DNA from: Verrucomicrobiia bacterium
GTDB taxonomy: Bacteria > Verrucomicrobiota > Verrucomicrobiia > Limisphaerales > DASXHY01
DNA length: 64,000 nt
Assembly (NCBI GenBank): GCA_035629175.1
Contig: DASPIL010000023.1
Coordinates: forward strand, 1 to 64,000
Direction of reading: 5' to 3'
Every line of letters starts with the position of its first letter. Within the stretch, counting starts at the first letter, position 1. A program made the translations under genes and the position numbers. Shown one piece after another: positions 1 through 16,641 of this stretch. Below the pieces are notes generated by a model. It had not been told where the DNA came from and made no database searches. It saw nothing but the letters and a program-made list of their open reading frames with translations.

Positions 1-686
1 TCTGGAATGTTTCCCCAGTTGCCCGGTTCCACAAAAAGCGTGCGGGACGGGTTCGACTTCCGGATTTCGCTGATGACGCGAGGATAAATGTCATTCATCA
101 CCGCCGTCGTCGCCTTGTCGTGCGGTTCGTTCAGCACCTCGAATGCAAGAGTCTCGGGACTGTCTTTGTAATGTTCCGCTACCTGCCTCCAGATGGCCAC
201 GAGTTGGTCGGCAGAACCGGCAGGATCGGCATCAAATTCGCGGAAGTGATGAATGTTGATCAAGACCGCCAAGCCATGGGCCAGCGCATTCGTCACCACA
301 AAGTCCACTTTGCCAAAGATTTCCCGAGAGAGTTGAAATTCGGGCGCAGGGCTGGAATAGCGGTGCCATCCCACAGGCACGCGGATGTGATCGAAACCCT
401 GCGCTTTGATTTGCCGGATATCCTCGGCGCTTACGCGAATCGCCCAGTCGGGGCCGGCTTCCAGGTAATCGCCGAGGTTCACACCGCGCAGGAACTTCCT
501 GGCCGCACGGTAGGCAGGGGTATCGCGACTCGCGATAGGTTGCATCGCAGGCGGGTTTTGCGACTGAAAGGGCAGGTCCGCCCCCGGTGAGGGCAGCGCG
601 GAAGCAAACCAGAGCGCGAGGAAAAACGAAGGAAACGGTTTCACTGGGGAACTATCGGTCCTGGGGTTGCCTACTTCAATTCGCAT
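1..686 (-). CDS. Secreted glycoside hydrolase family 5 (cellulase-like), partial
   Basis: This is the N-terminal 228 codons of a secreted GH5 (endoglucanase-type) glycoside hydrolase; the gene runs off the left edge. Read on the minus strand it has a signal peptide (VKPFPSFFLALWFASALPSP) and then the GH5 pattern: RGVNLGDYLE, FDHIRVPVGW, a HH pair (NIHHF) and LNEP, whose Glu is the family's general acid/base. The nucleophile Glu lies outside the window. The start is uncertain: an ATG at 686 adds 14 residues before the signal peptide, while a GTG at 644 would start directly at it. Substrate is not determinable; beta-1,4-glucans or related hemicelluloses are typical. It is divergent from rpmI. 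Confidence 0.85.
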   Translation of the reverse strand, partial: MRIEVGNPRTDSSPVKPFPSFFLALWFASALPSPGADLPFQSQNPPAMQPIASRDTPAYRAARKFLRGVNLGDYLEAGPDWAIRVSAEDIRQIKAQGFDHIRVPVGWHRYSSPAPEFQLSREIFGKVDFVVTNALAHGLAVLINIHHFREFDADPAGSADQLVAIWRQVAEHYKDSPETLAFEVLNEPHDKATTAVMNDIYPRVISEIRKSNPSRTLFVEPGNWGNIP

Positions 687-716
687 TGCGATGACCTGAG
701 CCGTCAAAATAATGGC

Positions 717-745
717 TTGCGTGGCCGGAGGCCGGTACTTATATT
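717..745 (+). promoter_or_regulatory. Sigma-70-like promoter for rpmI-rplT
   Basis: TTGCGT (717-722) and TATATT (740-745) are separated by exactly 17 bases and lie 36 bases before the rpmI start. Four of six and five of six positions match the sigma-70 consensus. A start of transcription near 752 would give a leader of about 30 bases, and no clear Shine-Dalgarno sequence is visible before rpmI. Inferred from sequence only. Confidence 0.5.
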
Positions 746-781
746 GCGCGCTCTTTTTGAAAGAAAGTTGATTGATTTTTT

Positions 782-991
782 ATGCGACGTCCCAAAGGCA
801 TTAAGACGAAGAAATCCGCGGCCAAGCGGTTCAAGATCACCGCAAGCGGCAAGGTCATGCGCTCCAGCGCAGGCCGCCGCCATTTGGCACAGGGCAAGAG
901 CCCGAAGCGCCGCCGCAATCTTCGGGGGACCACCACGGTTCACTCCACCGACGAGTATCGCATCAAGCAGAACCTTCCGTTCACACGCTGA
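782..991 (+). CDS. rpmI: 50S ribosomal protein L35
   Basis: This encodes a 69-residue, highly basic protein with the L35 hallmarks: the N-terminal KGIKTKKSAAKRFKITASGK stretch and a lysine/arginine-rich middle (GKSPKRRRNL). L35 is a late-assembling component of the large ribosomal subunit. The gene is followed 33 bases later by rplT, the usual partner. In most bacteria infC (initiation factor IF-3) comes immediately before rpmI; here a divergent GH5 gene and a recognisable promoter occupy that place. The length is normal for the family. Confidence 0.97.
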   Translation: MRRPKGIKTKKSAAKRFKITASGKVMRSSAGRRHLAQGKSPKRRRNLRGTTTVHSTDEYRIKQNLPFTR

Positions 992-1024
992 TTTTTCGAC
1001 TGAGACCCTGCACCTGATTTCGTT

Positions 1025-1405
1025 ATGCGAGTAACAAACGCTCCAGCTTCCCGCAAACGCCGCACCAGAATGATCCGGGCCGCCAAAGGCTTCCGGTTGC
1101 GTCGTTCCAAACTCTACCGTTACGCTTCCGACGCCGTTGATCACGGGCGCCAATATGCCTACCGCGATCGCCGCACGAAGAAGCGCACGTTCCGCTATCT
1201 CTGGCAGATCCGCATCAATGCCGCCGCACGCGAGGCCGGAATCACCTACAGCCGCCTGATCGAAGGACTGAAAGCCGCCAAGTGTGAACTGGACCGCAAG
1301 GTCCTCGCCGACATCGCCGCGCAGGACGTCGCGACGTTCAACGAAATCGTCAAGCTGGCGCAGGGTGCGCTCAAGACGAAGGCGGCGACCGCCAAGGCGG
1401 CATAA
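1025..1405 (+). CDS. rplT: 50S ribosomal protein L20
   Basis: This is a 126-residue basic protein typical of L20, which binds 23S rRNA early in large-subunit assembly and in many bacteria represses its own operon. The family patterns are clear: an N-terminal RKRRTRMIRAAKGFRLRRSK helix, TFRYLWQIRINAAAREAG, and YSRLIEGLKAA. The C-terminus carries a short Ala/Lys-rich tail. It forms a pair with rpmI. A hairpin with a short T-run lies 26 bases after the stop and separates it from pheS. Confidence 0.97.
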   Translation: MRVTNAPASRKRRTRMIRAAKGFRLRRSKLYRYASDAVDHGRQYAYRDRRTKKRTFRYLWQIRINAAAREAGITYSRLIEGLKAAKCELDRKVLADIAAQDVATFNEIVKLAQGALKTKAATAKAA

Positions 1406-1430
1406 ACCGATCACTTCTGTTTTCGCCACG

Positions 1431-1460
1431 GGCGATCCGCAATGCGGGTCGCCTGTTTTG
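1431..1460 (+). terminator. Hairpin terminator or attenuator between rplT and pheS
   Basis: The arms GGCGATCCGC (1431-1440) and GCGGGTCGCC (1444-1453) form a 10-pair stem with one G-T pair and a three-base loop, followed by TGTTTTG. It lies 26 bases after rplT and about 75 bases before pheS, so it could end the rpmI-rplT message or act as a partial terminator controlling pheS. The T-run is interrupted, so its strength is uncertain. Confidence 0.6.
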
Positions 1461-1533
1461 TTGTCGCGAACCGAAAGGAGTTTGGAATTTTCTGTGACTT
1501 TTGCAGCCGATGCGGATTAAATCTGCCGCTCGT

Positions 1534-2562
1534 ATGTCGTTCCTGAATGAAATTGAGCCGTTGAAACAAGCTGCCCTGGCTGAGTTGAGCGGGGCATCAG
1601 ACCTCGCCGCCCTGGAGCAAACCAAGGGGGCCTGGATGGGTGCCAATGGGAAACTGACAGGCCTGATGAAGCAACTCGGTACGCTTCCCAAGGAGGAAAA
1701 GCCCGCCGCAGGAAAATTGATCAACGCCGCAAAAGCCGAACTCGAAGCAGCGCTGGCGCAACGCCGAAGCGAGCTCGAAATGAAGGCCGCCCTGCCCAAG
1801 GAACCCACTGACTTTACGCTCCCAGGACGCCGTCGCGTTCTCGGCAAGTTGCACCCGCTCACGCAGGTCACCGAAGACATTGTCCGCAGCTTTCGCAAGA
1901 TTGGGTTCGTGGTCGCTGACGGCCCTGAGATCGAGGACGAGTATCATTGCTTCGACGCACTCAACACTCCCGCAGACCACCCCGCTCGCGACACGCAGGA
2001 CACGTTTTATCTGGGCGGAAATCCGAGTTCCGAAAATCCCGGTGCCAAGCCGATGCTCCTGCGCACGCATACGTCGTCGGTCCAGATTCGCGTGATGAAA
2101 TCCCAGCCGCCACCCGTGCGCATCATTGTGCCGGGACGGGTTTACCGGCGCGACAATGCGGATGCCACGCACAATCCGACCTTCCAGCAGGTGGAAGGGT
2201 TGTATGTCGACAAAGGGGTGACGGCGGCGGATCTGAAGGGCACTGTCGAGTTTGTGTTCCGCGAATTGATGGGCAGCGACGTGAAGATCCGCTTCCGCCC
2301 ACACTACTTCAGTTACACCGAACCGAGCTTCGAAATCGATTTCACGAGCGCGCTCGTCAAGAAGATGGGCAAGGATTGGCTGGAAATCGCGGGCTGCGGC
2401 ATGGTGCATCCCAAGGTTTTTGAAAATGTCGGCTACGATCCCGAAGTCTGGACAGGCTGGGCTTTCGGCTTCGGCATCGAACGCATCGCAATGATTCGGT
2501 ATGGAATCAACGACATCCGCCTTTTCTACGAAAACGACCTGCGATTCCTAAGGCAGTTCTAA
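1534..2562 (+). CDS. pheS: Phenylalanyl-tRNA synthetase alpha subunit
   Basis: This is the catalytic alpha subunit of the class II heterotetrameric PheRS, which charges tRNA-Phe. It shows the N-terminal coiled coil (about residues 1-90), motif 2 (GRVYRRDNADATHNPTFQQV) and motif 3 near the end (GWAFGFGIERIAMIRYGI). I chose the ATG at 1534 (MSFLNEIEP, 342 residues), which fits the family length; in-frame TTG 1501 and ATG 1510 would add 11 and 8 residues. The partner pheT does not follow: it lies at 14212, after a minus-strand block and cydAB. pheS ends 10 bases from a convergent gene. Confidence 0.97.
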   Translation: MSFLNEIEPLKQAALAELSGASDLAALEQTKGAWMGANGKLTGLMKQLGTLPKEEKPAAGKLINAAKAELEAALAQRRSELEMKAALPKEPTDFTLPGRRRVLGKLHPLTQVTEDIVRSFRKIGFVVADGPEIEDEYHCFDALNTPADHPARDTQDTFYLGGNPSSENPGAKPMLLRTHTSSVQIRVMKSQPPPVRIIVPGRVYRRDNADATHNPTFQQVEGLYVDKGVTAADLKGTVEFVFRELMGSDVKIRFRPHYFSYTEPSFEIDFTSALVKKMGKDWLEIAGCGMVHPKVFENVGYDPEVWTGWAFGFGIERIAMIRYGINDIRLFYENDLRFLRQF

Positions 2563-2572
2563 GCCGGAAAGC

Positions 2573-3379
2573 TCAGCGCGAATATTTCGATTGGTGCGGA
2601 TTTTTCTTCAATCGATCCAATGCTTCCTGTTTCCAGTCGACGGCTGGAGCAGATTCGACCGAAGGCACCGGTGGAGCAGGCGAGGAGGCGGCGGCAACTC
2701 CACTGATCGCTGGCGGAAGTGCGGGAACGATTGTTTGCGAGGGGATGCTCCGCGATTCGAAATATGAGCTTTGGCTGAACGCCGATTTTGCCGGCATGTC
2801 GGCTTGGATGGGGGCGGGGGAAGTGACGCTCGCCGCCTGGGATGAAAGTGCCGCCGGTTCTTCCTCCTCTGTTCGCCAGGAAAGACGCACCGACGGTATG
2901 GGCCCGACATGCACCACAAGCGTGCGATATGTGAGTTCGCTCAGCGCGACGCGGTCCGCGACAGCCTCCGCCTGCAGCAGTGATGAGAGCAACGCGTGGA
3001 TTGTCTTGCGGGCTTGATGCGCGGTGACAAGCGCTCGGATGGCGGGATGGGGGACGTCCTCGTATTTGTCCAGGTGCACTACCAGCCGCTGCACGGGGCT
3101 CAGTTCCATGTCCACACCGCGGAGGTCGTATCCGGCTTCGGCGAACGTGCCCGCCGCGTCGTGGATCTCCTGGAGCGCTTCCAGGATGTGATCGGGATTA
3201 TCCATCCGCAGATCCGTAACGCTCGACTGAATGCTGCTGCGCAGTTGCTGCAACTGGCCTGCGGTCACGGCGACAGTCTCGCGAATCTCGGAAATTTTTG
3301 GCGGAACACTTTGGATGGCCTTCTGAATGTCAGCAGCCTTCTGGCTGAGATTCTGAACTTTTGTGACGAAGCGTTTCAT
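2573..3379 (-). CDS. Coiled-coil protein of unknown function, partner of the AAA ATPase
   Basis: I do not recognise this 268-residue protein. Residues 1-75 are heptad-rich (VQNLSQKAADIQKAIQ, ISEIRETV, LQQLRSSIQSSVTDL) and predict a coiled coil; residues 75-175 are mixed, and 175-260 are Ser/Ala/Pro-rich and probably disordered, ending in a basic tail. It has no signal peptide or membrane segment, so it is probably cytoplasmic. It starts 42 bases after the giant ATPase stop on the same strand and is probably co-transcribed with it and with flotillin. I infer a structural or adaptor role in the same machine, but nothing in the sequence proves it. Confidence 0.75.
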   Translation of the reverse strand: MKRFVTKVQNLSQKAADIQKAIQSVPPKISEIRETVAVTAGQLQQLRSSIQSSVTDLRMDNPDHILEALQEIHDAAGTFAEAGYDLRGVDMELSPVQRLVVHLDKYEDVPHPAIRALVTAHQARKTIHALLSSLLQAEAVADRVALSELTYRTLVVHVGPIPSVRLSWRTEEEEPAALSSQAASVTSPAPIQADMPAKSAFSQSSYFESRSIPSQTIVPALPPAISGVAAASSPAPPVPSVESAPAVDWKQEALDRLKKNPHQSKYSR

Positions 3380-3421
3380 TGGCTTTTTAAATTGTTCGTT
3401 GTGGGTTGCACCGTCAGGTTT

Positions 3422-6400
3422 TCATTCTCGCCTCTCTTGATCGGGAGCGGGCAGGGGACCGGGCTGGGGCGCGGGTGTGTCGTCCTGCGATTGCGAGATG
3501 ACTTGCTGGAACTTTTCCAAAAACGCGCGCTCGTTCGTCAGCATCTCCTGCGTCAGGTCAATTTCCACCGTTCCCTGCCGGGCCCGCGTCGCCAGGAGTT
3601 CCTGCGCTTCGCGGAGATGATTGCGCTGCTGCTCGGCGAGATCCTTCAACGTGCCGAGCGTGCTGTGAATCATCTCCAACTCGTGCGACAGGCTGTTGAC
3701 CTTGTCGGACATCGACCCTGAATGAACGGCAGTGATCGCCCGTGTGAGGTCCTCGCGCAAAGCGTGGAGGCTTTCCGAGAACTGCGACGCAAGGTTTGCT
3801 CCGTCGGGCGCGGCTTTTGGCGCTTCCGCCGCGGGAGGCCGCGATAATCCGTGTTCGAGGGTCGTTCTTAACGTTTCCAGCGTTTTGCCTATTGGCGCCA
3901 GGTCAAGCACGGGCGGCAAAGCTGGCTTCGAGAGTTGTTTTTCCAGCGTGCTTTGAATGGATTCCAGGCCTGCCTGAAAGCCGGAAAGCTGTCCCACGAC
4001 ACGGCTCACCGGATCGTTCTGATCTCCGCCGCGGACGAGTTGATTGCGTTTGAACGTCTTCTTGATGTCTTCCCACCGCGCCTGCTCTTCATCGGTGATC
4101 GCGCCGATCATTTCCTTGAACTTGAGCAGGTTGGCCTCGGCTCCCGTGGTGAGCGTCTGCGATTCGTTGCGATAATGATCCAGGATGATGCCGCGCACTT
4201 CCGCGTCGTTCATGATCGGAACCACCTTTTCCGCAAGGCGATTCATGTTGCGGTAGGAACCCTGCAGGCGGAAGGGAGGCTCGACACGATACTCGTCAAC
4301 CTGCGCTGCGGAATGAATATATTCCTGGTTCACGCGCAGGATGACTTCGCGGATGGCCACGAGTTTCTTCATCACGGAAAGAATCTCCTCCACTTCCTGC
4401 GGTGAATAGCTGCCTTCAAATCCTTCCGCTTCGCGCTCGCCGGATTCCGCCATGCGGATGAAGGATCGAATATCCTTGTGGCTCTTGTTCGCGAGTGGCG
4501 CGAGCACAGCGTTCGATGTGACGGCGTTCTCGATGTAGCTCGCCTTGAACCATTCTGCACTGCCGCCAATGATGTCGCCCAGGTTGTAGGTGTCGGCGCG
4601 GTTGGCCAGCATGTCGGGGATTTTGAATTTCTGTCCGCTCTCCGTGTAGGGATTGCCCGCCATGACAACGATCACCTTGCGTCCGCGCAGGTCGTAGGTT
4701 CGCGGCTGCCCGCGCCAGACGCCTTCGATCTTTCTTTGCGCGTCGCAAAGCGAAATGAATTTTTGCAGGAACTCGGGATTGCAATGCTGGATGTCATCCA
4801 CGCAGATCATCGTGTTGTCACCCATTTCGAGCGCGAGATTCAGCTTTTGAATTTCCTCGCGGGCTGCGGCGTTCGGCGCCTCCTCGGGATCCAGCGACGT
4901 CACCGCGTGCCCCAGGGCGGGGCCATTGATTTTGACGAACACGATCCCCAGGCGATTGGCAACGTACTCCATGAGCGTTGTCTTGCCGTAGCCGGGGGGT
5001 GAAATGACAAGCAGCAAACCCATGAGGTCCGTGCGCTTCTGATCGCCCGCCGCGCCGATCTGTTTTGCGAGGTTGTCGCCGACGAGAGGAAGGTAGATGC
5101 GATCGATCAACTGATTTCGCACGAACGATGTGAGCACGCGGGGCTTGAATTCATCGAGCCGAAGCTTGCGCCGTTCCTGTTCCACGAACTGCTGTTTGAG
5201 TTCACGGAATCGCTCGAACTTTGGAACCACCTCGCTCTCGAACTTTTGCAAACGTTCCGTGAATTGCAGGTAATCGAAGCGATAGCGGCTGCCGTGAATC
5301 ACGGCGTGATTGCCCTTCATCCCATCCAGTTCACGGACCGAACTTGCCTCGACCACGCTCTGTTCGAGCGCGTCTCCGCAAAACACGATCGCCGCGATCT
5401 CCTCGACGTATTGCATCCGCCCTGCGGAAGCCGCCGTTGCGTTCAACAGGAATCCGCGGACCCAATCCCGCGTCAATTCCAGCGAGCTTTCCGGATGATC
5501 CGCCAGTTCGGTGACGGCCGCGTCGAAAATCTCCTCGCTCGATTTGGCGATCAGGTATTGATGGAAGTCGATGGAAAGCTGGTGCGCCTCCTGCGTTACG
5601 GCAAATGCATCGCCACTGATCAGCTCGTGAAAGAGGTATTCGCCCGCTGGGTGCACAACATTCTCCGGATACAGGGCATTCTGTTTTACGAAGGCCCTGA
5701 TCAGGTTTTGAAGGGCTGCGATGTAATTGCCCTGGATGGGATCGCCAGGAAACAACTTGTTGCGTTCGCCAAAAGCCCGCAGCCGGGCGCGCCACAGCGT
5801 GCGAGCTGGTTCGGGGCAGAAGCGATGCCAGTAAACAACGGCGCATGCCCGCGCGGTTGGATCGAAGCGGGCGAGTTGCAAAGCCAGATGTGATCCAAGG
5901 AGGGCGGAGAATATTTTTGCGCCGTCCAGGTCGTGCACCCCCTTCGTGTATCCCTCCTGATAACGGGCGCTTACAAACTGCTGCACAAAAGCCAGGCGCT
6001 CGTCATCGGACCACGACGCAACCTCCTCGAGTGACACGGAGGAACCTGGGCGCCCATTGGCCGCCTGGGCGCTGCTCGCCTCAGCATCTTCAGTAACGGC
6101 AACCTGGCCACCGTTTTGCGCGCGCGCGGGAGTGCCGTTGAGCGTGCCCGCGGCAAGGGATTGCAGAAGCTGCCACGCGAGATATTCGCCGCGATAAACC
6201 TGCGCGTTTTCAGAAACAACCTCCTGGTTCCACACGTCGCGCGTGGCGAGCAGGTCCGGGCTTTGAATCGGATCGAAGTATCGGGTGCCCGTGAGATGAA
6301 TGAACTGCGTGCCGTCGCGCTGAACCACAGTGAGGTCGAGCGGCTGCGTGTTGATGTTGAAGCGATGCTTGCCCAGCTGAATCACTCCCTCTCCGCCCGC

Positions 6401-9010
6401 AAACAGATCCTGCCGATCCTTCAGCTGGCGAACCGCTTCCTGCTGCACGCTTTTCAGGCGCCCCTGCAGGTCGTCCGCCTTCACCGAATCCCCCGTCGCC
6501 ATCAGTTGATCGATTGTCTCGCGCACCTTGGCGATCATCAGGTCTGACGCCATGTAGGTGTTGATATCCTCGACCGATTTGAAACCACTGAGGCGGTTTT
6601 GGATGACCTTCAGGATCCGCTCCGCTGCGGTCATCAGCGCATTTGCGCGCCGATGTCGCTGTTCCACGAGAGCGAGCTTTCTTTGCTCAAACGCTTCGTA
6701 GAGTTCGGTGCGCCGTTCAGATAGCTGAACCGTGTATTCCTCAAAATCGGCGAACGCGCCTTCCAGTTCCTCGATTTGAACGGTGAGGCGGTTCAGATAT
6801 TCCTCGCACTTCGCAGGCGAGTCGCAGAGATCGAGATAGCTTGCGGCGGCCTGGCTGAGCAGCTTGATCTGGGCGTTGAACTGCGCCGCGCCTTCCCGGG
6901 CGACCAGTTCCTGCAGGCGCTTCTTCAACGCTGCCTTCACCTGGTTCAGGGTCGAGTAGACTGCCGTGATCCCATCGATGATGCGGGTTGTCTCCGTCGC
7001 GTCGGCAATGTTCAGGCTGTTGACGACTTCAATCAACATCTCGAGCTCGCCGCCGGCTGTGTTGACCGCCTTTTCGATCGCCTTGCCTTCGGCGACTTTT
7101 GAAATCTGTTCGACCGCAGCAACCTGCGTGTCGGCCTGCTTGCGATACGAGTCCAGGGATTCGGGCTTCAGCAGGAACTGCACGGTGGCCGTGGAAAGTT
7201 CGCCGGCCTGCCCGGCCACCTTTGCCTCGATGGCATCCAGCGCCGCGAGATCGACGTAGCGAACCTCCTTCAACGTGATCAGCTCGCCCCGCATGTGCCG
7301 GAGTGCGGTGAGGTTCACCACGAAATCGTTCAGCGTGTTGAAGCTCGTCCTGCGAATGGTGTTGAAAAGCTCGCGGCTGCGCTTGCTGACGTCATCAACG
7401 CGTTGCACGGCTTCGCGCTGAAGGCGTTGAACCTTGTCGAATTCGTCGACAGCCTTGTCGGCAGCTTCGCCCACCTGGCGCAGCGCATCATCAATCTGAA
7501 ACGCATCGGGGTGCGCGAGCCACGGATACGAATCCAGGATGGCGCTGCAGCGCTTGACGAGGTCCGTGTAGAGTTCTGCGTAGGGATTCTCCTTGCGAAC
7601 CAGCGTCAGCACTTCATTGCATTCTGCCAGCGCACGAACGACCTCCTTGTTTCCAACCTGGTAGAGATAGGCGTCCTTCCGTCCGGCCGGCTCATAGCCG
7701 GGCTGATGAAAAGGGGTCTGTCGCAGCTGGATCGAATGATGTTTCTGCGGTTCCAATTCCGCGCGGAAGAGCAGCAGCTGGCCATTCGGAAAAATCGAAA
7801 AGCCGTTGCAGCTGATCCGCTCCTCCACCTTTTGAGCGATCAAGCGGTAGGGCATTAGCACGTATTCGCCGCTGATCCGATTGTAAAACACGTATAGGAC
7901 ATCCTCGCCGTTGGGTGCGTGGATGACGCGCTCCATGACCATGCCATCGACCCTCGCCTCGAAACGCTTCAGCTCGCCCGTCGCGAGATAGTAACCGTCG
8001 GGAAAGATCAACCCGTGCGACTCGGGCAGGAACACGCAGGATTCGCCGACCGAATCGACGCGCACAGCGGTCTGCTGCTTTTCGTTGAAGATGAAGTATC
8101 GCGCCTGCGATTCCTTGTACGGCCGCACCTTTAACAGTATCAGGTGCCCAACAATGCCATACGCGATCTCCGCGTCATCGACCTTCTGGTACTTGTCATC
8201 AACAGGTTCGGCATACACGCCTTCGCCCGTTGCGGTGTTGTCCTCGACCTTGATCGTGAGATCGCCGCCCACGCTTTCGACAAAGACGCGGTCTTCAATC
8301 GACACGTGGGGATGATCGCCGTATCGATACGACTCGCGGTCGGGAGTTTGCCATTTGAATTGGTGAGGGGAAGGATAGGCGATGCGGCGGTATTCGGATT
8401 CGGCCCGGCCGTCGACGAATTTCAGGTTGCCATCGTTGTAGGCCCACTTGAACACGGCGAAGTCATTGATTCCCGCGCCTGTGGCAAACTTCATGTAAAG
8501 CTTCCCCTCGATCAGGGCGAACTTTCGAAACGCGGCCTTCTCGTAAACATTGTAAAGGCGCTTGAAGTCCCCAAGGAACTGCTTGTCCATGAGCAGGTCC
8601 ATGCTTGCTTCCTTGAACGAGCCCGACTGTTCGTCGCGGCTGTAGATCGCGAACACATCGCTCAATTCCATTTCCTTCTTCAAGCCAAACTGGACGTTGA
8701 AGCCGAACAGGAACTGGTTTTCGCCGAGTTGCACCATGTCGCGCGGGACGCAGTTGTGCGCGGTGACGATGCGATCGGCCTGCAGCAGCTTGAATTCAAT
8801 GGAACCGAAAACTTCCCTGCGCCGGCTGTCGAGCTGCGCCATGCGATCACGCAGTTTGGCGCCCTGCGCCTGCAGGCGGTTGCGAATGATCTCGTACGTC
8901 GCGCTGCCGAGCGCCTGGACAGTGGATGATCCGTCGGGAACGGCCGGCGCCCCCGGAGCTGGGGCCCCGGGGTCGTTCGGCTTCATTAAATTGTCGGAAA
9001 CTTCAGCCAT
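3422..9010 (-). CDS. Giant AAA-type ATPase with DUF3686-like N-terminus (annotated elsewhere as DNA repair ATPase)
   Basis: This is a 1862-residue protein. The N-terminal third (about 50-480) resembles the DUF3686 region of proteins usually named 'DNA repair ATPase', with repeated beta-strand stretches such as ENQFLFGFNVQFGL. About 480-1300 is alpha-helical with coiled-coil stretches. An AAA ATPase module follows: Walker A SPPGYGKTTL near 1335-1344, Walker B MICVDDIQH near 1400, and a sensor-like VVMAGNPYT near 1450. The C-terminus (about 1620-1862) is again coiled coil. No membrane segment or signal peptide is seen. The DNA-repair label is a name inherited by the family, not shown here. It lies between the flotillin and coiled-coil genes and probably works with them. 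Confidence 0.85.
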   Translation of the reverse strand: MAEVSDNLMKPNDPGAPAPGAPAVPDGSSTVQALGSATYEIIRNRLQAQGAKLRDRMAQLDSRRREVFGSIEFKLLQADRIVTAHNCVPRDMVQLGENQFLFGFNVQFGLKKEMELSDVFAIYSRDEQSGSFKEASMDLLMDKQFLGDFKRLYNVYEKAAFRKFALIEGKLYMKFATGAGINDFAVFKWAYNDGNLKFVDGRAESEYRRIAYPSPHQFKWQTPDRESYRYGDHPHVSIEDRVFVESVGGDLTIKVEDNTATGEGVYAEPVDDKYQKVDDAEIAYGIVGHLILLKVRPYKESQARYFIFNEKQQTAVRVDSVGESCVFLPESHGLIFPDGYYLATGELKRFEARVDGMVMERVIHAPNGEDVLYVFYNRISGEYVLMPYRLIAQKVEERISCNGFSIFPNGQLLLFRAELEPQKHHSIQLRQTPFHQPGYEPAGRKDAYLYQVGNKEVVRALAECNEVLTLVRKENPYAELYTDLVKRCSAILDSYPWLAHPDAFQIDDALRQVGEAADKAVDEFDKVQRLQREAVQRVDDVSKRSRELFNTIRRTSFNTLNDFVVNLTALRHMRGELITLKEVRYVDLAALDAIEAKVAGQAGELSTATVQFLLKPESLDSYRKQADTQVAAVEQISKVAEGKAIEKAVNTAGGELEMLIEVVNSLNIADATETTRIIDGITAVYSTLNQVKAALKKRLQELVAREGAAQFNAQIKLLSQAAASYLDLCDSPAKCEEYLNRLTVQIEELEGAFADFEEYTVQLSERRTELYEAFEQRKLALVEQRHRRANALMTAAERILKVIQNRLSGFKSVEDINTYMASDLMIAKVRETIDQLMATGDSVKADDLQGRLKSVQQEAVRQLKDRQDLFAGGEGVIQLGKHRFNINTQPLDLTVVQRDGTQFIHLTGTRYFDPIQSPDLLATRDVWNQEVVSENAQVYRGEYLAWQLLQSLAAGTLNGTPARAQNGGQVAVTEDAEASSAQAANGRPGSSVSLEEVASWSDDERLAFVQQFVSARYQEGYTKGVHDLDGAKIFSALLGSHLALQLARFDPTARACAVVYWHRFCPEPARTLWRARLRAFGERNKLFPGDPIQGNYIAALQNLIRAFVKQNALYPENVVHPAGEYLFHELISGDAFAVTQEAHQLSIDFHQYLIAKSSEEIFDAAVTELADHPESSLELTRDWVRGFLLNATAASAGRMQYVEEIAAIVFCGDALEQSVVEASSVRELDGMKGNHAVIHGSRYRFDYLQFTERLQKFESEVVPKFERFRELKQQFVEQERRKLRLDEFKPRVLTSFVRNQLIDRIYLPLVGDNLAKQIGAAGDQKRTDLMGLLLVISPPGYGKTTLMEYVANRLGIVFVKINGPALGHAVTSLDPEEAPNAAAREEIQKLNLALEMGDNTMICVDDIQHCNPEFLQKFISLCDAQRKIEGVWRGQPRTYDLRGRKVIVVMAGNPYTESGQKFKIPDMLANRADTYNLGDIIGGSAEWFKASYIENAVTSNAVLAPLANKSHKDIRSFIRMAESGEREAEGFEGSYSPQEVEEILSVMKKLVAIREVILRVNQEYIHSAAQVDEYRVEPPFRLQGSYRNMNRLAEKVVPIMNDAEVRGIILDHYRNESQTLTTGAEANLLKFKEMIGAITDEEQARWEDIKKTFKRNQLVRGGDQNDPVSRVVGQLSGFQAGLESIQSTLEKQLSKPALPPVLDLAPIGKTLETLRTTLEHGLSRPPAAEAPKAAPDGANLASQFSESLHALREDLTRAITAVHSGSMSDKVNSLSHELEMIHSTLGTLKDLAEQQRNHLREAQELLATRARQGTVEIDLTQEMLTNERAFLEKFQQVISQSQDDTPAPQPGPLPAPDQERRE

Positions 9011-9044
9011 GCTTCAAAGTCCGCGCCTTCGCAACGGTGCGCCG

Positions 9045-9190
9045 GTTTCCCAACCTGCCGTATCGCAGATTTTCACATCTGCGTTCGCGTGAACTTGGCG
9101 CGCAGGTTGGAAACCTGTCCACCCTCCGCAGTAGCTGCTTCGGAGGTCGGGCGATACAGCGGACTGGGAGGTCTGCGCTACGCCGCCGGA
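9045..9190. repeat. Structured intergenic repeats between flotillin and the giant ATPase
   Basis: The 214-base gap holds nested inverted repeats. GTTTCCCAACCTGC (9045-9058) pairs with GCAGGTTGGAAAC (9102-9114), enclosing CGCAGAT (9064-9070) and ATCTGCG (9077-9083). Further along, CTCCGCAG...CTGCTTCGGAG and AGCGGAC...GTCTGCGCT form two more hairpins. The words CCTGCCGTATCGCA and GGTCTGCGCTACG recur with small changes at 19621 and 19695, and the second also near 11686, so this is a dispersed repeat family. It could lower or stabilise the ATPase part of a shared message. Confidence 0.65.
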
Positions 9191-9224
9191 TGAGTCCGCG
9201 TGACAACATTGTCAGAGCTGCATG

Positions 9225-11399
9225 TCACCCGCGGGCTCCCGCCTTGTCAGCCAAAGCGATGGACGCAAGGGTTTCCGCGATCCCACTCTGGTCAGCCATC
9301 GCCTTCGCCGATTTCAACAGCGACTGCAGGGAACTGTCCTTTGTGGAAGCCATCAGCTTTGTGATCAAGGCGGCAACAGTGAGGTTTTTCAAATCCTCGC
9401 TGCTAATGCCAAACTCATTCACAAGCTTCCGAAGCTTCGTTCGGAAATGTTCCGGGTCGCCATTGAAGAAGGTTTCCTTGATATCGGTCAGCGTCGCACT
9501 GTTGTGTACCAGGCGGTCGACGGCCTTGCCGTTGCTGACTGAGCGCACAACCTTTTCGAAGAAGTCATTCTCGCCGCCAACGATGTCGATGTGCGCGCTC
9601 TTGAGCGCTTCGCCCACAAGGTGCGAATGTGACTGCGCAATATCCCTTTGCACGTGGATTGCGGCGAGTTCGACATCCCGCTCCTTGGCGAGTCGAAGCC
9701 GGAATTCCTCGTGTTGCTGGCTGGCGGCCTGCAGGAGTTTCATGGCGTTGGCCTTTTGCTCGATGCCTTTTGCCTCGGCGAGCGCGCGGGCCTCAATGCC
9801 CGCAGCGGCGGCGAGTTCCTTTTCCTTCACCCCTTCGGCTTCGGCCTCGGCCTGCTGCTGTGTTATGTCTGCATGGGAATGCCCCTTGGCCTTGATGATC
9901 TCGGCCTCGGCAAGTCCCAGTTCGCGCACGCCACCGGCCTCGATCTTTTTGGCTTCGGCCTTGGCCATGATGACCTTGGCTTCCGCAAGCCCGTGTGCGG
10001 CTTCCTGCGCGGCCAATCCTTCGGCTTCCTGTTCCATTGCGTGACGCTTGCGTTCAGAGGCCTTCGCTTCCGCCTCGGCAAGAGTCTGGATGCGTTCGGC
10101 ATCCCGCACAGCCGCTTCCTTCGCAGCTTCTGCCGCCACGACAGTCTTGATCTTTTGTGCATCGGCCATGTTGCGTTCCGCGTCACGCTGCGCTTCTGAG
10201 GCCACCACCTTCACGACCTGTTCCTTCTTGGCGTTCATCTCCGCCTCGATCAGCGTGACCTCGCGGACGCGCTCGGCAGTCATGCGCGCTTCGATATTCA
10301 GCTTCTCCTCTTCCTGTTGAACGACAGCTTTCTGTTCGGCCACGACAATGGCGCGTTTGCGTTCCACTTCCACCCCGGCTTCGGCGACTCTCGCGCTCTT
10401 GTCCAGGTCAGCGAGAGCGACCGTGCGCTCGCGGCGGACACGGGCTTCCTCGCCCTCCTGTTGCGCCTCCTGTTCCAGCCGTTGTTTTTCCTTTCGCACC
10501 GTGAACTCGCGTTCCTGAACGGCGCGGTTCATGTCCTCTGTGCGCAGGCGAATCGACTCCTCGGTCTCCAGGCGCTTGGCTTCCACTTCCATCCGCCGCG
10601 CTTCGATCACCTTGCGCGCCTCGGCTTCTTCGTTGGCCTTGATCTCTGTGATGGCGCGGGTTTGCTTTGCCGTGTCTTCCTCGTTGCGACGTTTCTGTTC
10701 ACGCCGCGCGATCTCGGCATCGGCGTTTTCCTTTTCAATCTGCACTCCGGCGCGCTGTGAATGCTCGTTGGAAACAACCCGCTCGCGTTGTGTGATCTCG
10801 GTGATCTTCTTGATGCCTTCAGAATCAAGCACGTTGTTTGGATCGTGCTGGTCCAGGGGCGTCTGTTCGAGGTAATCGATGGCGACGTCCTGCAGGAGGA
10901 AGCCATCGAGGTCCTTGCCAATAGTGTTCTGGATCTGGTCGCGAAACTTGATTCGCTCGGTGAACAGCTCGTGAAATTCCATCTGCTTGCCGGCCGTCTT
11001 GAGCGCCTCGGAGAATTTGGCCTCGAACAGTTCTCTCAGCTTCTCAATGTCCGACACGCGTTCGGGCGTCAGCATCTGCGCCACCTTGCGAACGCTTTCC
11101 TCCGTGGCATCGACGCGGATGTAGAACGCCACGGTAATGTCCGCACGAATGTTATCCTTGCAGACCAGGCCGTCCTTTCCTTTGCGGGCGATCTCCAGCT
11201 TCTTCACGGAGATGTCGACAATGTGGTAGTTCTGCAGGAGCGGGAAGGCGACCATCCAGTCGAACGACACCTTCAGGCCGCCCATGCCCGTCTTCACGCC
11301 AGCGCGGCCCGGCTGGATTTTTCGGACGAAAAGCATGCTGACGATCGTGACAACGACCAGCAAACCGATGACGACGACTGTGATGATTGTGGGCAACAT
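9225..11399 (-). CDS. Flotillin-family (SPFH) membrane scaffold protein
   Basis: This 724-residue protein has one N-terminal membrane segment (about 4-25, VVVIGLLVVVTIVSMLFV), an SPFH/prohibitin domain (about 27-220, with YLEQTPLDQHDPNNVLDSEG at its end), a very long Glu/Ala/Lys-rich coiled coil (about 215-600) and a C-terminal flotillin tail (about 610-724). Flotillins such as YqiK and FloT oligomerise at the membrane and organise microdomains. This one is longer than the usual 500-550 residues because of the coiled coil. It is the first gene of a probable minus-strand operon with the giant ATPase and the coiled-coil gene. An AGGAG lies about 25 bases before the ATG, too far to be a normal ribosome site. 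Confidence 0.92.
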   Translation of the reverse strand: MLPTIITVVVIGLLVVVTIVSMLFVRKIQPGRAGVKTGMGGLKVSFDWMVAFPLLQNYHIVDISVKKLEIARKGKDGLVCKDNIRADITVAFYIRVDATEESVRKVAQMLTPERVSDIEKLRELFEAKFSEALKTAGKQMEFHELFTERIKFRDQIQNTIGKDLDGFLLQDVAIDYLEQTPLDQHDPNNVLDSEGIKKITEITQRERVVSNEHSQRAGVQIEKENADAEIARREQKRRNEEDTAKQTRAITEIKANEEAEARKVIEARRMEVEAKRLETEESIRLRTEDMNRAVQEREFTVRKEKQRLEQEAQQEGEEARVRRERTVALADLDKSARVAEAGVEVERKRAIVVAEQKAVVQQEEEKLNIEARMTAERVREVTLIEAEMNAKKEQVVKVVASEAQRDAERNMADAQKIKTVVAAEAAKEAAVRDAERIQTLAEAEAKASERKRHAMEQEAEGLAAQEAAHGLAEAKVIMAKAEAKKIEAGGVRELGLAEAEIIKAKGHSHADITQQQAEAEAEGVKEKELAAAAGIEARALAEAKGIEQKANAMKLLQAASQQHEEFRLRLAKERDVELAAIHVQRDIAQSHSHLVGEALKSAHIDIVGGENDFFEKVVRSVSNGKAVDRLVHNSATLTDIKETFFNGDPEHFRTKLRKLVNEFGISSEDLKNLTVAALITKLMASTKDSSLQSLLKSAKAMADQSGIAETLASIALADKAGARG

Positions 11400-11835
11400 A
11401 ACTATGAGCGGGTTATCAACAGTTTCTCCTGAGTTGGTTCAGATCCGGGCTGCAAAAACTGGTTTATGGTTAACAGAGCGGAAGATTGGATGCGAATATA
11501 ATTTCCCGAGCGGATTCGAACGGGGCGTGATCAACGTCGTGAGGCGCGGGGCTCTTCAAATCGGCGGCATCCGCCAACTCAATGCAGGTTCTCCCGACGA
11601 GTCGGGACCGTCTCGCCGCGCTTCCAACCCGGACGGGTATGGCCAGCGCCGAGCAGGCTAGGAAATCCGCAATGGAGCAACCTTGGAAGTCTGCGCCACG
11701 TGAAACTCATTTTCGCCATAAGCATCCTGAAATTCTGACAGTGGCCCATGGACGTTTCGGTCCATGGTGTCCATCTTCTTCGCAACTCACAGCCGGAACA
11801 TTCCCGAAGCAGTATGCTTCGTTATCGCAAATTTT
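11400..11835. other. Divergent intergenic region between flotillin and cydA
   Basis: The 436 bases hold no gene I can support. A perfect TATAAT occurs at 11497-11502, but the nearest -35-like TTAACA (11470-11475) is 21 bases upstream, so a promoter there is doubtful. Bases 11590-11700 contain repeat-like sequence, including GGAAGTCTGCGCCACG near 11685, related to the repeats at 9045 and 19560. A perfect inverted repeat lies at 11746-11767. Confidence 0.5.
11746..11767. promoter_or_regulatory. Perfect inverted repeat upstream of cydA (candidate operator or hairpin)
   Basis: CCATGGAC (11746-11753) and GTCCATGG (11760-11767) are exact inverted copies separated by six bases. The site is 69 bases before the cydA start. 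It could be a binding site for an oxygen- or redox-responsive dimeric regulator, or an mRNA hairpin; no T-run follows, so it is not a standard terminator. Confidence 0.4.
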
Positions 11836-13161
11836 ATGAGTGACCTGCTTGCTGCCCGATCGCAAATGGCGATGTCGCTCGCGTTCCACATCATCTTCGC
11901 CGTGGTCGGCATCGCCATGCCCCTGATGATGGTGATGGCGGAGTGGAAATGGCTGCGGACGCGTGATGACGTTTATCTCACGCTTGCGAAGCAGTGGGCC
12001 AAGGGGACCGCGATCCTGTTTGCGGTGGGCGCGGTTTCCGGAACCGTTCTTTCGTTCGAACTGGGGTTGCTCTGGCCGGAGTTCATGCGTTACGCGGGTC
12101 CGATTATTGGGATGCCGTTCTCGCTGGAGGGTTTCGCGTTTTTCCTCGAGGCGATCTTTCTCGGAATTTATCTGTATGGCTGGAAGCGCGTGTCGCCCTG
12201 GGCACATTGGTTTTCAGGCGTCATGGTGGCGTTCAGCGGCATGATGTCAGGCGTCTTTGTTGTCACGGCGAATGCATGGATGAATACGCCTGCCGGATTT
12301 GAACTGGTGAATGGCAAGCCCGTGAACATCGATCCCATCGCCGCAATGCTGAATCCCGCGGCGGTGCAGCAGGTCGTTCACATGACGCTGGCGGCGTATG
12401 CAGCGGTTGGATTTGCAGTCGCTGCCATTCACGCATTCATGTTGCGGCGCGATCGGGAGAACCTGTTTCATCGGCGCGCATTCGTGATCGCGTTCATCGT
12501 CGGCGCAGTCACTTCCGTATTGCAGCCGCTGAGCGGCGATTTCCTCGCGCGGCAGGTTTTCCGCTATCAACCCATCAAACTGGCTGCAATGGAAGGGCAG
12601 TTTGAAACGGAACGCCGCGCGCCTTTGCGCATTGGCGGCTGGCCGGATGAGAAAACCGGGACAACGCGATATGCAATCGATATTCCTGCCGGCCTCAGCC
12701 TGCTGGTTCATCACGATCCCGACGGCGAGATCAAAGGGTTGAACGAATTCCCCAGGGACGAATGGCCGCCCGTTGCCATCGTTCACGTTGCGTTTCAAAT
12801 CATGGTGGGTTGCGGCATGACGCTGCTGGCGGCAAGCCTGGCGGGCGCGTGGCTTGCGTGGCGGAAGAAAAAGCTTTGCGATCAACGCTGGTTTCTGACG
12901 TTTGTCATGCTCTGCGGCCCGCTGGGATTCATTGCGATCGAGGCAGGGTGGACGGTGACGGAAGTCGGACGCCAGCCCTGGATCATTTACAATTACATGC
13001 GGACTGCCGACGCAGTCACGCCCATGCCAGGGCTGATCGTGCCGTTCATCTCGTTCACCATTCTCTACATTTTCCTGGCATTCGTCGTCGTGTTCCTGTT
13101 GAAACGGCAGGTGTTTGAAAGCCCGCGCATTTTTCGTCCGCCCGAAAGGACCAAGCCATGA
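11836..13161 (+). CDS. cydA: Cytochrome bd ubiquinol oxidase subunit I
   Basis: This is the haem-bearing subunit of the bd-type terminal oxidase, which oxidises quinol and reduces O2 to water at the inner membrane without pumping protons. I start at ATG 11836 (MSDLLAARSQMAMSLAFHII), giving 441 residues; the open frame extends upstream into the intergenic region but without family similarity. Visible marks are the haem-ligand His18 in SLAFHIIFAV, ETERRAPL in the Q loop, and the GWTVTEVGRQPW signature. The length and short Q loop fit the CioA-like, short-loop class. It overlaps cydB by four bases. Confidence 0.95.
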   Translation: MSDLLAARSQMAMSLAFHIIFAVVGIAMPLMMVMAEWKWLRTRDDVYLTLAKQWAKGTAILFAVGAVSGTVLSFELGLLWPEFMRYAGPIIGMPFSLEGFAFFLEAIFLGIYLYGWKRVSPWAHWFSGVMVAFSGMMSGVFVVTANAWMNTPAGFELVNGKPVNIDPIAAMLNPAAVQQVVHMTLAAYAAVGFAVAAIHAFMLRRDRENLFHRRAFVIAFIVGAVTSVLQPLSGDFLARQVFRYQPIKLAAMEGQFETERRAPLRIGGWPDEKTGTTRYAIDIPAGLSLLVHHDPDGEIKGLNEFPRDEWPPVAIVHVAFQIMVGCGMTLLAASLAGAWLAWRKKKLCDQRWFLTFVMLCGPLGFIAIEAGWTVTEVGRQPWIIYNYMRTADAVTPMPGLIVPFISFTILYIFLAFVVVFLLKRQVFESPRIFRPPERTKP

Positions 13162-14165
13162 TGACGCAGGCTGAGTTGGTGGGAATCGTCATGTTGTTCG
13201 CGCTCACATTTTACGCGCTGGGCGGCGGAGCGGATTTTGGCGGCGGGGTGTGGGATCTTCTCGCGCGTGGCCCAAGAACACGCGAACAGCGCGATTTAAT
13301 CGCGAGCGCAATCGGACCTATCTGGGAGGCCAATCATGTCTGGCTCATTCTCGTCATCGTGCTCCTGTTTGTAGCATTCCCGGCGGCGTTCTCCGCCATC
13401 AGCATCGCTTTGCACATCCCGCTGACCGTGATGCTGATCGGGATTGTCCTGCGAGGTTCAGCCTTCGTGTTCCGCAGTTACGATACGCAGAGGGACGATG
13501 TTCAGCGGCGCTGGAGCCGCTTGTTCGCGGCTGGCAGCATTGTTTCTCCTTTGATGCTTGGAGTGTGCGTTGGCGCGGTGGCATCGGGGCAAATTCGAGT
13601 CGATGTTGAAACTGGCGTCGTGCAAACCAACTTTTTCTCGCAATGGATGGCTCCGTTCCCATTCGCAATAGGTTTTTTCGTTCTGGCATTGTTTGCGTTT
13701 CTTGCGGCGGTTTACCTGGCATGGGAGGCGAAGGATCCAATGTTGAAGGATGATTTCCGGCAGCGCGCATTGTGGTCTGGGATTGCGGTGGCAGTGACGG
13801 CATTCGGTTCGCTCCTGCTTGCGGGTGATGGCGCCCCGATGCTGCGATCCGGCCTCGCGCAGTCATGGTGGGCATTGCCGTTCCAGTTGCTCACCGGCGC
13901 GGTGGCCGTCATGACACTCGCCGCGCTGTGGCTCAGGAAATTTCATGCGGCGCGCGTGCTGGCGATCAGCCAGGTGGCATTGATCATTTGGGGTTGGGGC
14001 TTTTCCCAGTTCCCATTCCTGGTTGCGCCGAACCTCACGTTCACCAACTCGGCCGCGCCTGATAACATCCTCCGCAGCCTCCTGATTGCGCTCGCGGCGG
14101 GCGCAGTGCTGCTGCTTCCCTCGCTGTGGTATTTGTTCCGCGTCTTTAAACGACGCGAGGACTAG
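13158..14165 (+). CDS. cydB: Cytochrome bd ubiquinol oxidase subunit II
   Basis: This 335-residue integral membrane protein has about eight predicted helices and the CydB signature near the start (FYALGGGADFGGGVWDLLA, then GPIWEANHVWLI). It completes the bd oxidase heterodimer with CydA and is translationally coupled to it through the ATGA overlap at 13158-13161. No small CydX gene was recognised after it. pheT begins 46 bases downstream on the same strand, so cydAB and pheT may share a transcript, an unusual pairing. Confidence 0.95.
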   Translation: MMTQAELVGIVMLFALTFYALGGGADFGGGVWDLLARGPRTREQRDLIASAIGPIWEANHVWLILVIVLLFVAFPAAFSAISIALHIPLTVMLIGIVLRGSAFVFRSYDTQRDDVQRRWSRLFAAGSIVSPLMLGVCVGAVASGQIRVDVETGVVQTNFFSQWMAPFPFAIGFFVLALFAFLAAVYLAWEAKDPMLKDDFRQRALWSGIAVAVTAFGSLLLAGDGAPMLRSGLAQSWWALPFQLLTGAVAVMTLAALWLRKFHAARVLAISQVALIIWGWGFSQFPFLVAPNLTFTNSAAPDNILRSLLIALAAGAVLLLPSLWYLFRVFKRRED

Positions 14166-14211
14166 GAGCAGGTTGACTGCCCTTTGCCGGCCGTTTACCG
14201 TCCCCCCTTCG

Positions 14212-16641
14212 ATGAAAGTCACCCTGAATTGGCTCAAACAATACGTGGATTTTGACTGGACGGCAGACGAGTTGTCCGAACGCCTGACCATGCTCGGCCT
14301 TGAAGTGGAAAGCGTTCACAAAATCGCCGCCGAGTTCGAAGGAGTCGTCGTTGCAGAGGTGATCAGCCGCGACAAGCACCCGAATGCCGACAAGCTTTCG
14401 CTCTGCCGGGTCAACGATGGCAAGGGCGAACGCCAGATCGTCTGCGGCGCGCAGAATTTCAAGGCGGGTGACAAGGTCCCGCTGATTCTGCCCGGGGCTT
14501 CGCTGCCAATGAAGGCGGGCGACAAGGAACCATTCACCATCAAAGTGGGAAAGATCCGCGGAGTTGAATCACACGGCATGATGTGTTCCCCGCAGGAGCT
14601 CGGCTTGCCAGACGCCGTGGACGGTTTGCTCATCCTCCGCGAGGATGCCACGGTCGGCCAGCCCTTCGCCGAATACCTCGGGCGCAGCGGCAGCGATGTT
14701 GTTTACGACCTGGAAATCACGCCCAATCGCCCCGACTGGAACAGTGTGATTGGAATTGCCCGCGAGATTGCTGCGCTCACTGGCAATCCGCTGCGCTTGC
14801 CTGAAATTGTTTTGTCCCCATCCGAAGTTCGCGCTGCAGATCAAGTGGCTGTTCGTATCGAAGACGTCGAACGCTGCCCGCGTTACACAGCGCGAATCAT
14901 CCGAGGCGTCAAGGTTGGGCAAAGTCCGGACTGGCTGAAGAACGCTCTGGAAAAAGTGGGGATTCGCAGCATCAGCAACGTGGTGGATGTCACCAACTTC
15001 GTGATGCTCGAAATCGGCCAGCCGCTGCATGCTTTTGATTATCACCTCATAGCGAAGGGCGCCGATGGCAAGCCGGCGATCGTGGTCCGCCGAGCGGTCG
15101 ACGGCGAGAAATTCACGACCCTGGACGGGCAGGAGCGCACGCTCAGCAGTGACATGCTGTTGGTTGCCGATGAACAGAAGGGCATTGCGCTGGCGGGAAT
15201 CATGGGCGGCCGGAACACAGAGATCAATGAGCAGACCGTCGATGTGCTGATCGAGAGCGCGTACTTCGAGCCCGCGAACATCCGCCGCACGAGCAAACGA
15301 TTGGGATTGCGCAGCGATTCGAGTTATCGCTTCGAGCGCGGGGCCGATGCAGGGATCTGCGACTGGGCGAGCCAGCGCGCGGCCCAATTGATTCTGCAGA
15401 CGGCGGGCGGGCAGCTCGCGAAGGACGCCGTGGATGTTCATCCGAATCCTCCGATTGCTCGCGAGATCCCGTTGCGCTTCCGCAGGACAAACGAATTGCT
15501 GGGAACAAACATCAGCGACGAACAGCAGGCGAATTATCTGCGCGCCCTTGGACTGGAACAACGTCAAGGACAAGCTGGCGTTCATTTTCGCGTGCCCAGC
15601 TTTCGGGTCGATATCAAGCGGGAAGTGGACCTGATCGAGGAAGTCGCACGCTTGCATGGGGTCGACAAAATTCCATCCACGCCGCCCCGAGGCGCAATTG
15701 GCCAGAACCCGTTCGATTCCGTCCACGATCAGCTTGCCGAAGCGCGCCGAGTGCTCTGCGGTCTTGGGCTCAGCGAGGCGCAGGGGCAGACACTCGTTCC
15801 GAAGTCTGAAATTAAAAATGCTGCATCGGGGGTTGGAATTGTCGGCCTCGCCAATCCCTTGAGTGCGGACATGGACGTCCTGCGCCCCACGCTCCTGACC
15901 GGCATGGTCCATGCACTCCGGCATAACGTCAGCCGCAAGAGCCATGATCTTGGCTTGTTCGAGGCAGGCCGTGTCTTTGGGTCCGCCAATGGCTTAATCA
16001 AGGAGGAACGCCGCATCGCGCTCGCGCTCACTGGCCAGCGCAATCCGCTGTTCTGGAGCGGTGAGAATCGCGATGCAAAGATGGACATTTACGACTTGAA
16101 AGGCGTGCTTGAAGAATTTCTGGAGCAGTTTGGCATGCGTGGTGTTGTGTTCACGCGTCGGGCTGAGGGCACGGATCTGTTCCTTGAATCAGCCACCATT
16201 CAGCTGGGGAAGTTGTCCCTTGGCGAAATGGGGCAATTGCTGCCGGCGCTCGCCCGGCAATACGATTTGCGGGATCCCGTGTTCCTTGCGGAATTGAACC
16301 TCGACCAACTGCTGGCACGGCGAAATCCGGCGAAGTCGTTCAAGACGCTGCCCTCATTCCCATCGAGCCGGCGCGACGTTGCCATGCTCGTGGCGGACAC
16401 CGTGACACATGAAGCCGTGCTGCAGGTCGTGAAGCAGACGCGGCCGGCGAACCTGGAGTCGGTGGACTTGTTCGATGTCTTCCGCGGCAAGAATGTTCCC
16501 GCCGGGCAAAAGAGCATGGCCTACGCGTTCACCTATCGGAATTCGGAACGAACGCTGACGGACATTGAAGTGAACGCGGCGCACGAAAAGCTCGTGGCGC
16601 AATTGAAGCAAACGTTGCAGGCGGCGATTCGGGAATCTTAA
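14212..16641 (+). CDS. pheT: Phenylalanyl-tRNA synthetase beta subunit
   Basis: This is the 809-residue beta subunit of PheRS. Domains in order: N-terminal region (MKVTLNWLKQYVDFDW), tRNA-binding EMAP-like domain (about 40-150, with DKLSLCRVNDG and QIVCGAQNF), the B3/B4 editing region, the B5 domain, the inactive synthetase-like core (GLRSDSSYRFERG lies before it), and the C-terminal anticodon-binding FDX-ACB domain (about 715-809, PSSRRDVAMLV and YRNSERTLTD). I start at ATG 14212 because the upstream open frame is only the overlapping end of cydB. It is detached from pheS, 11.6 kb upstream on the same strand. Confidence 0.97.
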   Translation: MKVTLNWLKQYVDFDWTADELSERLTMLGLEVESVHKIAAEFEGVVVAEVISRDKHPNADKLSLCRVNDGKGERQIVCGAQNFKAGDKVPLILPGASLPMKAGDKEPFTIKVGKIRGVESHGMMCSPQELGLPDAVDGLLILREDATVGQPFAEYLGRSGSDVVYDLEITPNRPDWNSVIGIAREIAALTGNPLRLPEIVLSPSEVRAADQVAVRIEDVERCPRYTARIIRGVKVGQSPDWLKNALEKVGIRSISNVVDVTNFVMLEIGQPLHAFDYHLIAKGADGKPAIVVRRAVDGEKFTTLDGQERTLSSDMLLVADEQKGIALAGIMGGRNTEINEQTVDVLIESAYFEPANIRRTSKRLGLRSDSSYRFERGADAGICDWASQRAAQLILQTAGGQLAKDAVDVHPNPPIAREIPLRFRRTNELLGTNISDEQQANYLRALGLEQRQGQAGVHFRVPSFRVDIKREVDLIEEVARLHGVDKIPSTPPRGAIGQNPFDSVHDQLAEARRVLCGLGLSEAQGQTLVPKSEIKNAASGVGIVGLANPLSADMDVLRPTLLTGMVHALRHNVSRKSHDLGLFEAGRVFGSANGLIKEERRIALALTGQRNPLFWSGENRDAKMDIYDLKGVLEEFLEQFGMRGVVFTRRAEGTDLFLESATIQLGKLSLGEMGQLLPALARQYDLRDPVFLAELNLDQLLARRNPAKSFKTLPSFPSSRRDVAMLVADTVTHEAVLQVVKQTRPANLESVDLFDVFRGKNVPAGQKSMAYAFTYRNSERTLTDIEVNAAHEKLVAQLKQTLQAAIRES

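Follow-up and report, generated by a model that had tools for sequence, protein, structure and literature searches.

YqiJ and YuaF are NfeD-type partners of flotillins, encoded as yqiJ-yqiK in E. coli and yuaF-yuaG in B. subtilis (Hinderhofer et al. 2009, PMC2636767), and NfeD proteins have been proposed to promote SPFH oligomerisation (PMC13086221). Operons that combine a Band-7/flotillin protein with a beta-propeller AAA+ ATPase and YqiJ/YuaF, with or without CesT/Tir-PspA, were described by Ravi et al. 2024 (PMC11237479), who already proposed a membrane-linked ATP-driven machine. PspA is the stress link of that published system, and the PspA-CesT/Tir dyad is optional in abbreviated operons. 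HflKC-FtsH and ESCRT-III-Vps4 likewise couple an oligomerising membrane scaffold to an AAA ATPase; compared with the locus studied here they are analogies only, as no protease domain was found in our ATPase, the scaffold is a flotillin rather than an ESCRT-III protein, and the ATPase is far larger.

We analysed a flotillin-ATPase locus in a 64,000-nt stretch of DNA from a Verrucomicrobiia bacterium (hereafter, the window). Three minus-strand genes, encoding a flotillin-like protein, a giant DUF3686 ATPase and a 268-residue protein (CC268), lie in this order between pheS and pheT (Table 1), with the coordinates, strand and lengths given in an earlier sequence-only reading of the same DNA. That reading proposed a flotillin-anchored ATP-driven machine, possibly for stress or membrane remodelling; this is plausible and agrees with the conserved flotillin-ATPase unit described below, but it is not new, its core idea being already in the literature (Ravi et al. 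2024). Our main reading, to which we give a probability of roughly 0.55, is that the locus represents a variant, specific to this order, of the flotillin-AAA+ membrane system predicted by Ravi et al. 2024; in this variant a flotillin-anchored AAA+ remodeller would use CC268 as an adaptor in the place of YqiJ.

Table 1. Genes of the locus and its flanks (nucleotide positions in the window) and layout of the three proteins (residues).
Feature	Position	Strand	Remark
pheS	1501..2562	+	flanking gene
CC268, 268 aa	2573-3379	-	ORF
giant DUF3686/AAA+ ATPase, 1862 aa	3422-9010	-	ORF and Pfam matches
intergenic gap flotillin/ATPase, 214 nt	9011..9224	.	one imperfect inverted repeat, arms 9047-9058 / 9102-9113 (12 nt each, 43-nt spacing)
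flotillin-like protein, 724 aa	9225-11399	-	ORF and Band_7 match
cydA, cytochrome bd oxidase	11764-13161	+	flanking, divergent
cydB, cytochrome bd oxidase	13158-14165	+	flanking, divergent
pheT	14086..16641	+	flanking; ORF listed from TTG start
ATPase: long helix	28-68		
ATPase: beta-propeller-like DUF3686 domain	~74-431		Pfam DUF3686 53-495 (E 8.5e-166)
ATPase: coiled coil with DUF7902	~448-868		Pfam DUF7902 618-701
ATPase: small beta domain	876-914		
ATPase: helical domain	~994-1199		
ATPase: AAA module	1333-1453		one Pfam match; Walker A SPPGYGKTT 1337-1345, Walker B VDDIQH 1404-1409, sensor-1-like MAGNP 1450-1454
ATPase: poorly conserved tail	after ~1680		
Flotillin: N-terminal hydrophobic segment			
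Flotillin: Band_7/SPFH	27-168		
Flotillin: coiled-coil-like stretch	188-648		no proline, rich in A/E/K/R
Flotillin: conserved C-terminal region			
CC268: N-terminal helical hairpin/coil	2-23 and 27-55		predicted helices
CC268: alpha-beta-beta-alpha-alpha-beta-beta core	62-170		predicted, pLDDT mostly 80-90: H62-74/H76-81, E84-92, E98-105, H111-120, H125-143, E149-159, E163-170
CC268: linker, then short C-terminal helix	after the core		predicted; linker of low confidence

The ATPase was sought in the window's order, its phylum and named genomes (a few contigs are common to the named-genome and order sets). A same-strand flotillin gene was found upstream in 61 of the 63 named-genome ATPase loci for which 2.8 kb or more of preceding sequence was available, the gap being below 1 kb in 54 loci (median 197 nt), and in all 37 ATPase loci of the window's order (9/9 and 28/28). 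When one genome per family of the order was taken (58 genomes), the flotillin profile and DUF3686 marked the same 10, and one additional genome had a weaker flotillin. The linked families span Verrucomicrobiota, Planctomycetota, Bacteroidota, one Calditrichota and one Bacillota genome. This strict, phylum-crossing linkage is far above chance, not merely as frequent as expected, and shows that the flotillin and the ATPase form a genuine conserved module. The earlier grouping of all three genes into one unit thus stands for these two across phyla, but CC268 is a third member in one order only. Two loci (L089 and L130) had the ATPase and no flotillin or YqiJ within 8-10 kb upstream, and represent rare orphan ATPases.

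By strong inference from its architecture and gene context, the DUF3686 ATPase is the AAA+ protein described by Ravi et al. 2024; the open-licence full texts searched do not mention DUF3686 by name. The elements that define the published ATPase, i.e., an AAA+ module, an N-terminal beta-propeller and a coiled coil, were all recovered in the window's protein from Pfam and from residues 1-1200 modelled with AlphaFold2 (49 sequences, mean pLDDT 82). In this model, residues 74-431 are beta-rich, the region 73-433 matched WD40-type propellers in nearly all top hits (best Z 10.4, rmsd 5.7 Å, 220 residues aligned), and long helices follow at residues 448-868. The DUF3686-type N-terminus and the Walker A, Walker B and sensor motifs of a single AAA module, all noticed from the sequence alone, were located, and both Walker motifs are intact in 120 of the 123 ATPase ORFs. 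Pfam describes DUF3686 as an 'ATPase involved in DNA repair', and the P-loop has weak similarity to RuvB, so one might suppose that the ATPase works in DNA repair and that its link to flotillin is incidental. We consider this highly improbable, because the RuvB similarity lies only in the AAA P-loop region, where Cdc48/p97 structures in the PDB match equally well or better, because Pfam finds no nuclease or DNA-binding domain, and because a membrane flotillin is the partner in almost all loci. The repair name had been suspected of being inherited, and indeed no link to DNA repair was found and the label traces to the Pfam description; it is misleading for a family of which public genomes contain at least 500 loci.

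The window's flotillin was compared with the flotillin of the published system. The full-length protein had no Band_7 match in Pfam, and its first 208 aa matched Band_7 with an E value of 7e-12; it shares 42-44% identity with YqiJ-adjacent flotillins of the same order and has the long proline-free stretch listed in Table 1. A PDB sequence search with the flotillin gave no useful match. A promoter and terminator scan gave nothing above the shuffled-sequence level, and a search for a dispersed repeat in the intergenic gaps found no further copies within the window.

The locus differs from the published system in its partner genes. In the YqiJ-type relatives, a YqiJ-like gene with three transmembrane segments lies ahead of the flotillin and is weakly matched by Pfam YqiJ_N/YqiJ_OB. 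These relatives resemble E. coli yqiJ-yqiK and B. subtilis yuaF-yuaG in that the flotillin subtype shares an operon with a gene for a membrane NfeD-like protein, whereas no giant ATPase has been described for the two classical operons and the window's clade lacks an NfeD-type partner in the operon. No YqiJ gene was found at the window's locus, in the rest of its genome at E 1e-3 or in 20 other CC268 genomes; CC268 is instead added downstream of the ATPase. Genome-wide, YqiJ was present in 12 of 12 ATPase genomes without CC268 and in 0 of 21 with it. The same pattern was seen locus by locus, with 52 YqiJ only, 4 CC268 only, 0 both and 3 neither among named-genome loci with enough sequence (two of the three also lack flotillin and one is cut by a contig end), and with 14 YqiJ only, 22 CC268 only and 0 both in the order. 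CC268 and YqiJ are thus mutually exclusive, and the replacement of YqiJ by CC268 appears to be new as judged from the open-licence full texts searched. The idea of an ATPase C-terminal motif that follows the partner swap was not upheld: a simple pattern test gave an uninformative 5/29 versus 0/21, and related tails occurred in both groups of the order.

In FastTree phylogenies of the ATPase and of the flotillin, a single partner switch suffices in each; a branch with full support sets off the CC268 systems, next to which stand YqiJ systems of the same order. Given this single switch, the exclusion counts as one event that has been fixed since, and the Fisher p value given below is nominal. One event rather than many would also be expected if the loss of YqiJ were unrelated to CC268, i.e., if a clade lost YqiJ and retained a nearby unrelated gene by linkage. 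We regard this as unlikely, as the association of CC268 with the ATPase survives a strand change in family f25 and moves to other genomic sites, and almost no CC268 gene occurs away from the ATPase. CC268 was detected in 41 of 320 genomes of the order, 36 of which also have the ATPase (expected ~7; nominal Fisher p 3e-29); of the five without DUF3686, three have CC268 next to a fragment of the ATPase where the contig ends, one has CC268 itself at such an end, and one is a weak match. The two genes adjoin in nearly all fetched loci (convergent in f25, co-directional elsewhere), and in one genome (G667) they are on different contigs. CC268 is nearly confined to the window's order, with one weak match in 386 sampled other genomes of the phylum (5-sequence model). 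One contig (G582; L146:4554-5141 and 9132-9869) has two CC268-like genes or fragments, the sole possible duplicate.

The distribution of the ATPase is patchy (53 of 320 genomes of the order, 34 of 387 of the phylum), as would be expected of an anti-phage defence system, and its coiled-coil part matches LmuB of Lamassu (E 7e-6). Such a function for the module is nevertheless improbable: the LmuB match is confined to coiled-coil residues 524-900, the system occurs in one copy per genome with housekeeping genes as neighbours in the window, and both the trees and the partner swap point to inheritance in the order that is mostly vertical. PADLOC gave no match for CC268 or flotillin, and for the ATPase only the coiled-coil LmuB match.

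As judged from sequence, CC268 is the founder of a family absent from Pfam, NCBIfam and PADLOC. Homology of CC268 to YqiJ was rejected by hhalign profile comparison (probability 0.1%). In a shallow structure model (5 sequences, mean pLDDT 64), the description of CC268 as a coiled-coil protein applies to a predicted helical coil at ~2-55, but residues 62-170 are predicted to form a small alpha/beta domain (Table 1). Its C-terminal segment (DWKQEALDRLKKNPHQSKYSR in the window's protein) is conserved in the family, centring on ALxRFKKMPDLSK in most members and on DPEDDKWTSFPDISFP in f25. The linker before this end is variable, and the conservation behind it suggests that the C-terminus may be a binding peptide. 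We tentatively propose that CC268 belongs to a new adaptor family, a non-homologous and soluble stand-in for the NfeD/YqiJ partner, which could couple flotillin to the ATPase through its core and conserved C-terminal peptide, in the way that ESCRT-III tails recruit Vps4. Classical NfeD (PF01957) genes are kept in most CC268 genomes, including that of the window (G000:C106), and might serve the flotillin; the replacement is therefore established for the YqiJ gene and is only a proposal for its function.

Alternatively, CC268 might have originated as a PspA/ESCRT-III-like protein that has diverged strongly, or as a fusion of a PspA coil with a CesT/Tir-like domain, which would make the module a degenerate PspA-CesT-flotillin-AAA+ operon. 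PspA and CesT/Tir do occur in the published operons, CC268 combines a coil with an alpha/beta core, and PF04012 weakly matches CC268 in two genomes (G497 and G666, E ~2e-4) and one member at E 0.03. Moreover, a genome with YqiJ has a PspA/IM30 homologue (G013:C19, L014:15598-16257; E 6e-10) close to its flotillin-ATPase operon, an arrangement like that of the published operons with PspA. We find this origin slightly less likely even than retention by linkage, since the matches span only ~55 coil residues and numerous other coiled-coil families reach similar scores, a PspA hairpin would call for a longer coil than the one predicted (5-sequence model), and fold searches with the shallow 5-sequence model gave no confident match (best E 0.4 in Foldseek and best Z 4.2 in VIA-align). 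In a further difference from the published system, no PspA (PF04012) was found in the window's genome and none over the family cut-off in 21 CC268 genomes, indicating that PspA is not required by the system.

In the adaptor reading, the N-terminus of the flotillin would anchor it in the inner membrane, and its coiled coil would drive oligomerisation into a ring or cage, as in other SPFH proteins. The ATPase may dock on this scaffold via its propeller and/or coiled coil and assemble as an AAA ring, so that ATP could drive the extraction, unfolding or rearrangement of proteins or assemblies at the membrane patch (cf. HflKC-FtsH and ESCRT-III-Vps4). The flotillin assembly would be completed by the NfeD-type YqiJ in most bacteria, and in the window's clade CC268 would take this place. 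In the simplest case, CC268 would be a soluble adaptor that binds one partner through its coil and alpha/beta core and another through its flexible tail, the end of which is conserved. The system probably serves membrane or envelope stress. A clade with flotillin, ATPase and CC268 and without YqiJ offers a defined comparison for the role of NfeD/YqiJ and for the substrate of the ATPase.

The position between pheS and pheT had been read as consistent with an insertion. The two genes are 2.2-4.7 kb apart in 33 of the 35 relatives that have both on one contig, compared with 13.9 kb in the window and 14.5 kb in G043, with the system in between in both. The wide spacing is consistent with an insertion, but the insert also holds cydAB, its G+C content is not distinct and the system is at other sites elsewhere. 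The cydA-cydB pair, between flotillin and pheT, was overlooked in the sequence-only reading. Base composition did not point to a recent foreign import, with G+C of 56.7-60.1% across the block, like the flanks. In G497 the flotillin starts ~5 kb past pheT. The window, G043 and G497 all belong to one supported ATPase subclade, and the site is therefore probably shared by descent. In G043, the gene immediately upstream of the flotillin encodes a second SPFH/Band_7 protein (L016:5014-6030, E 1.7e-25).
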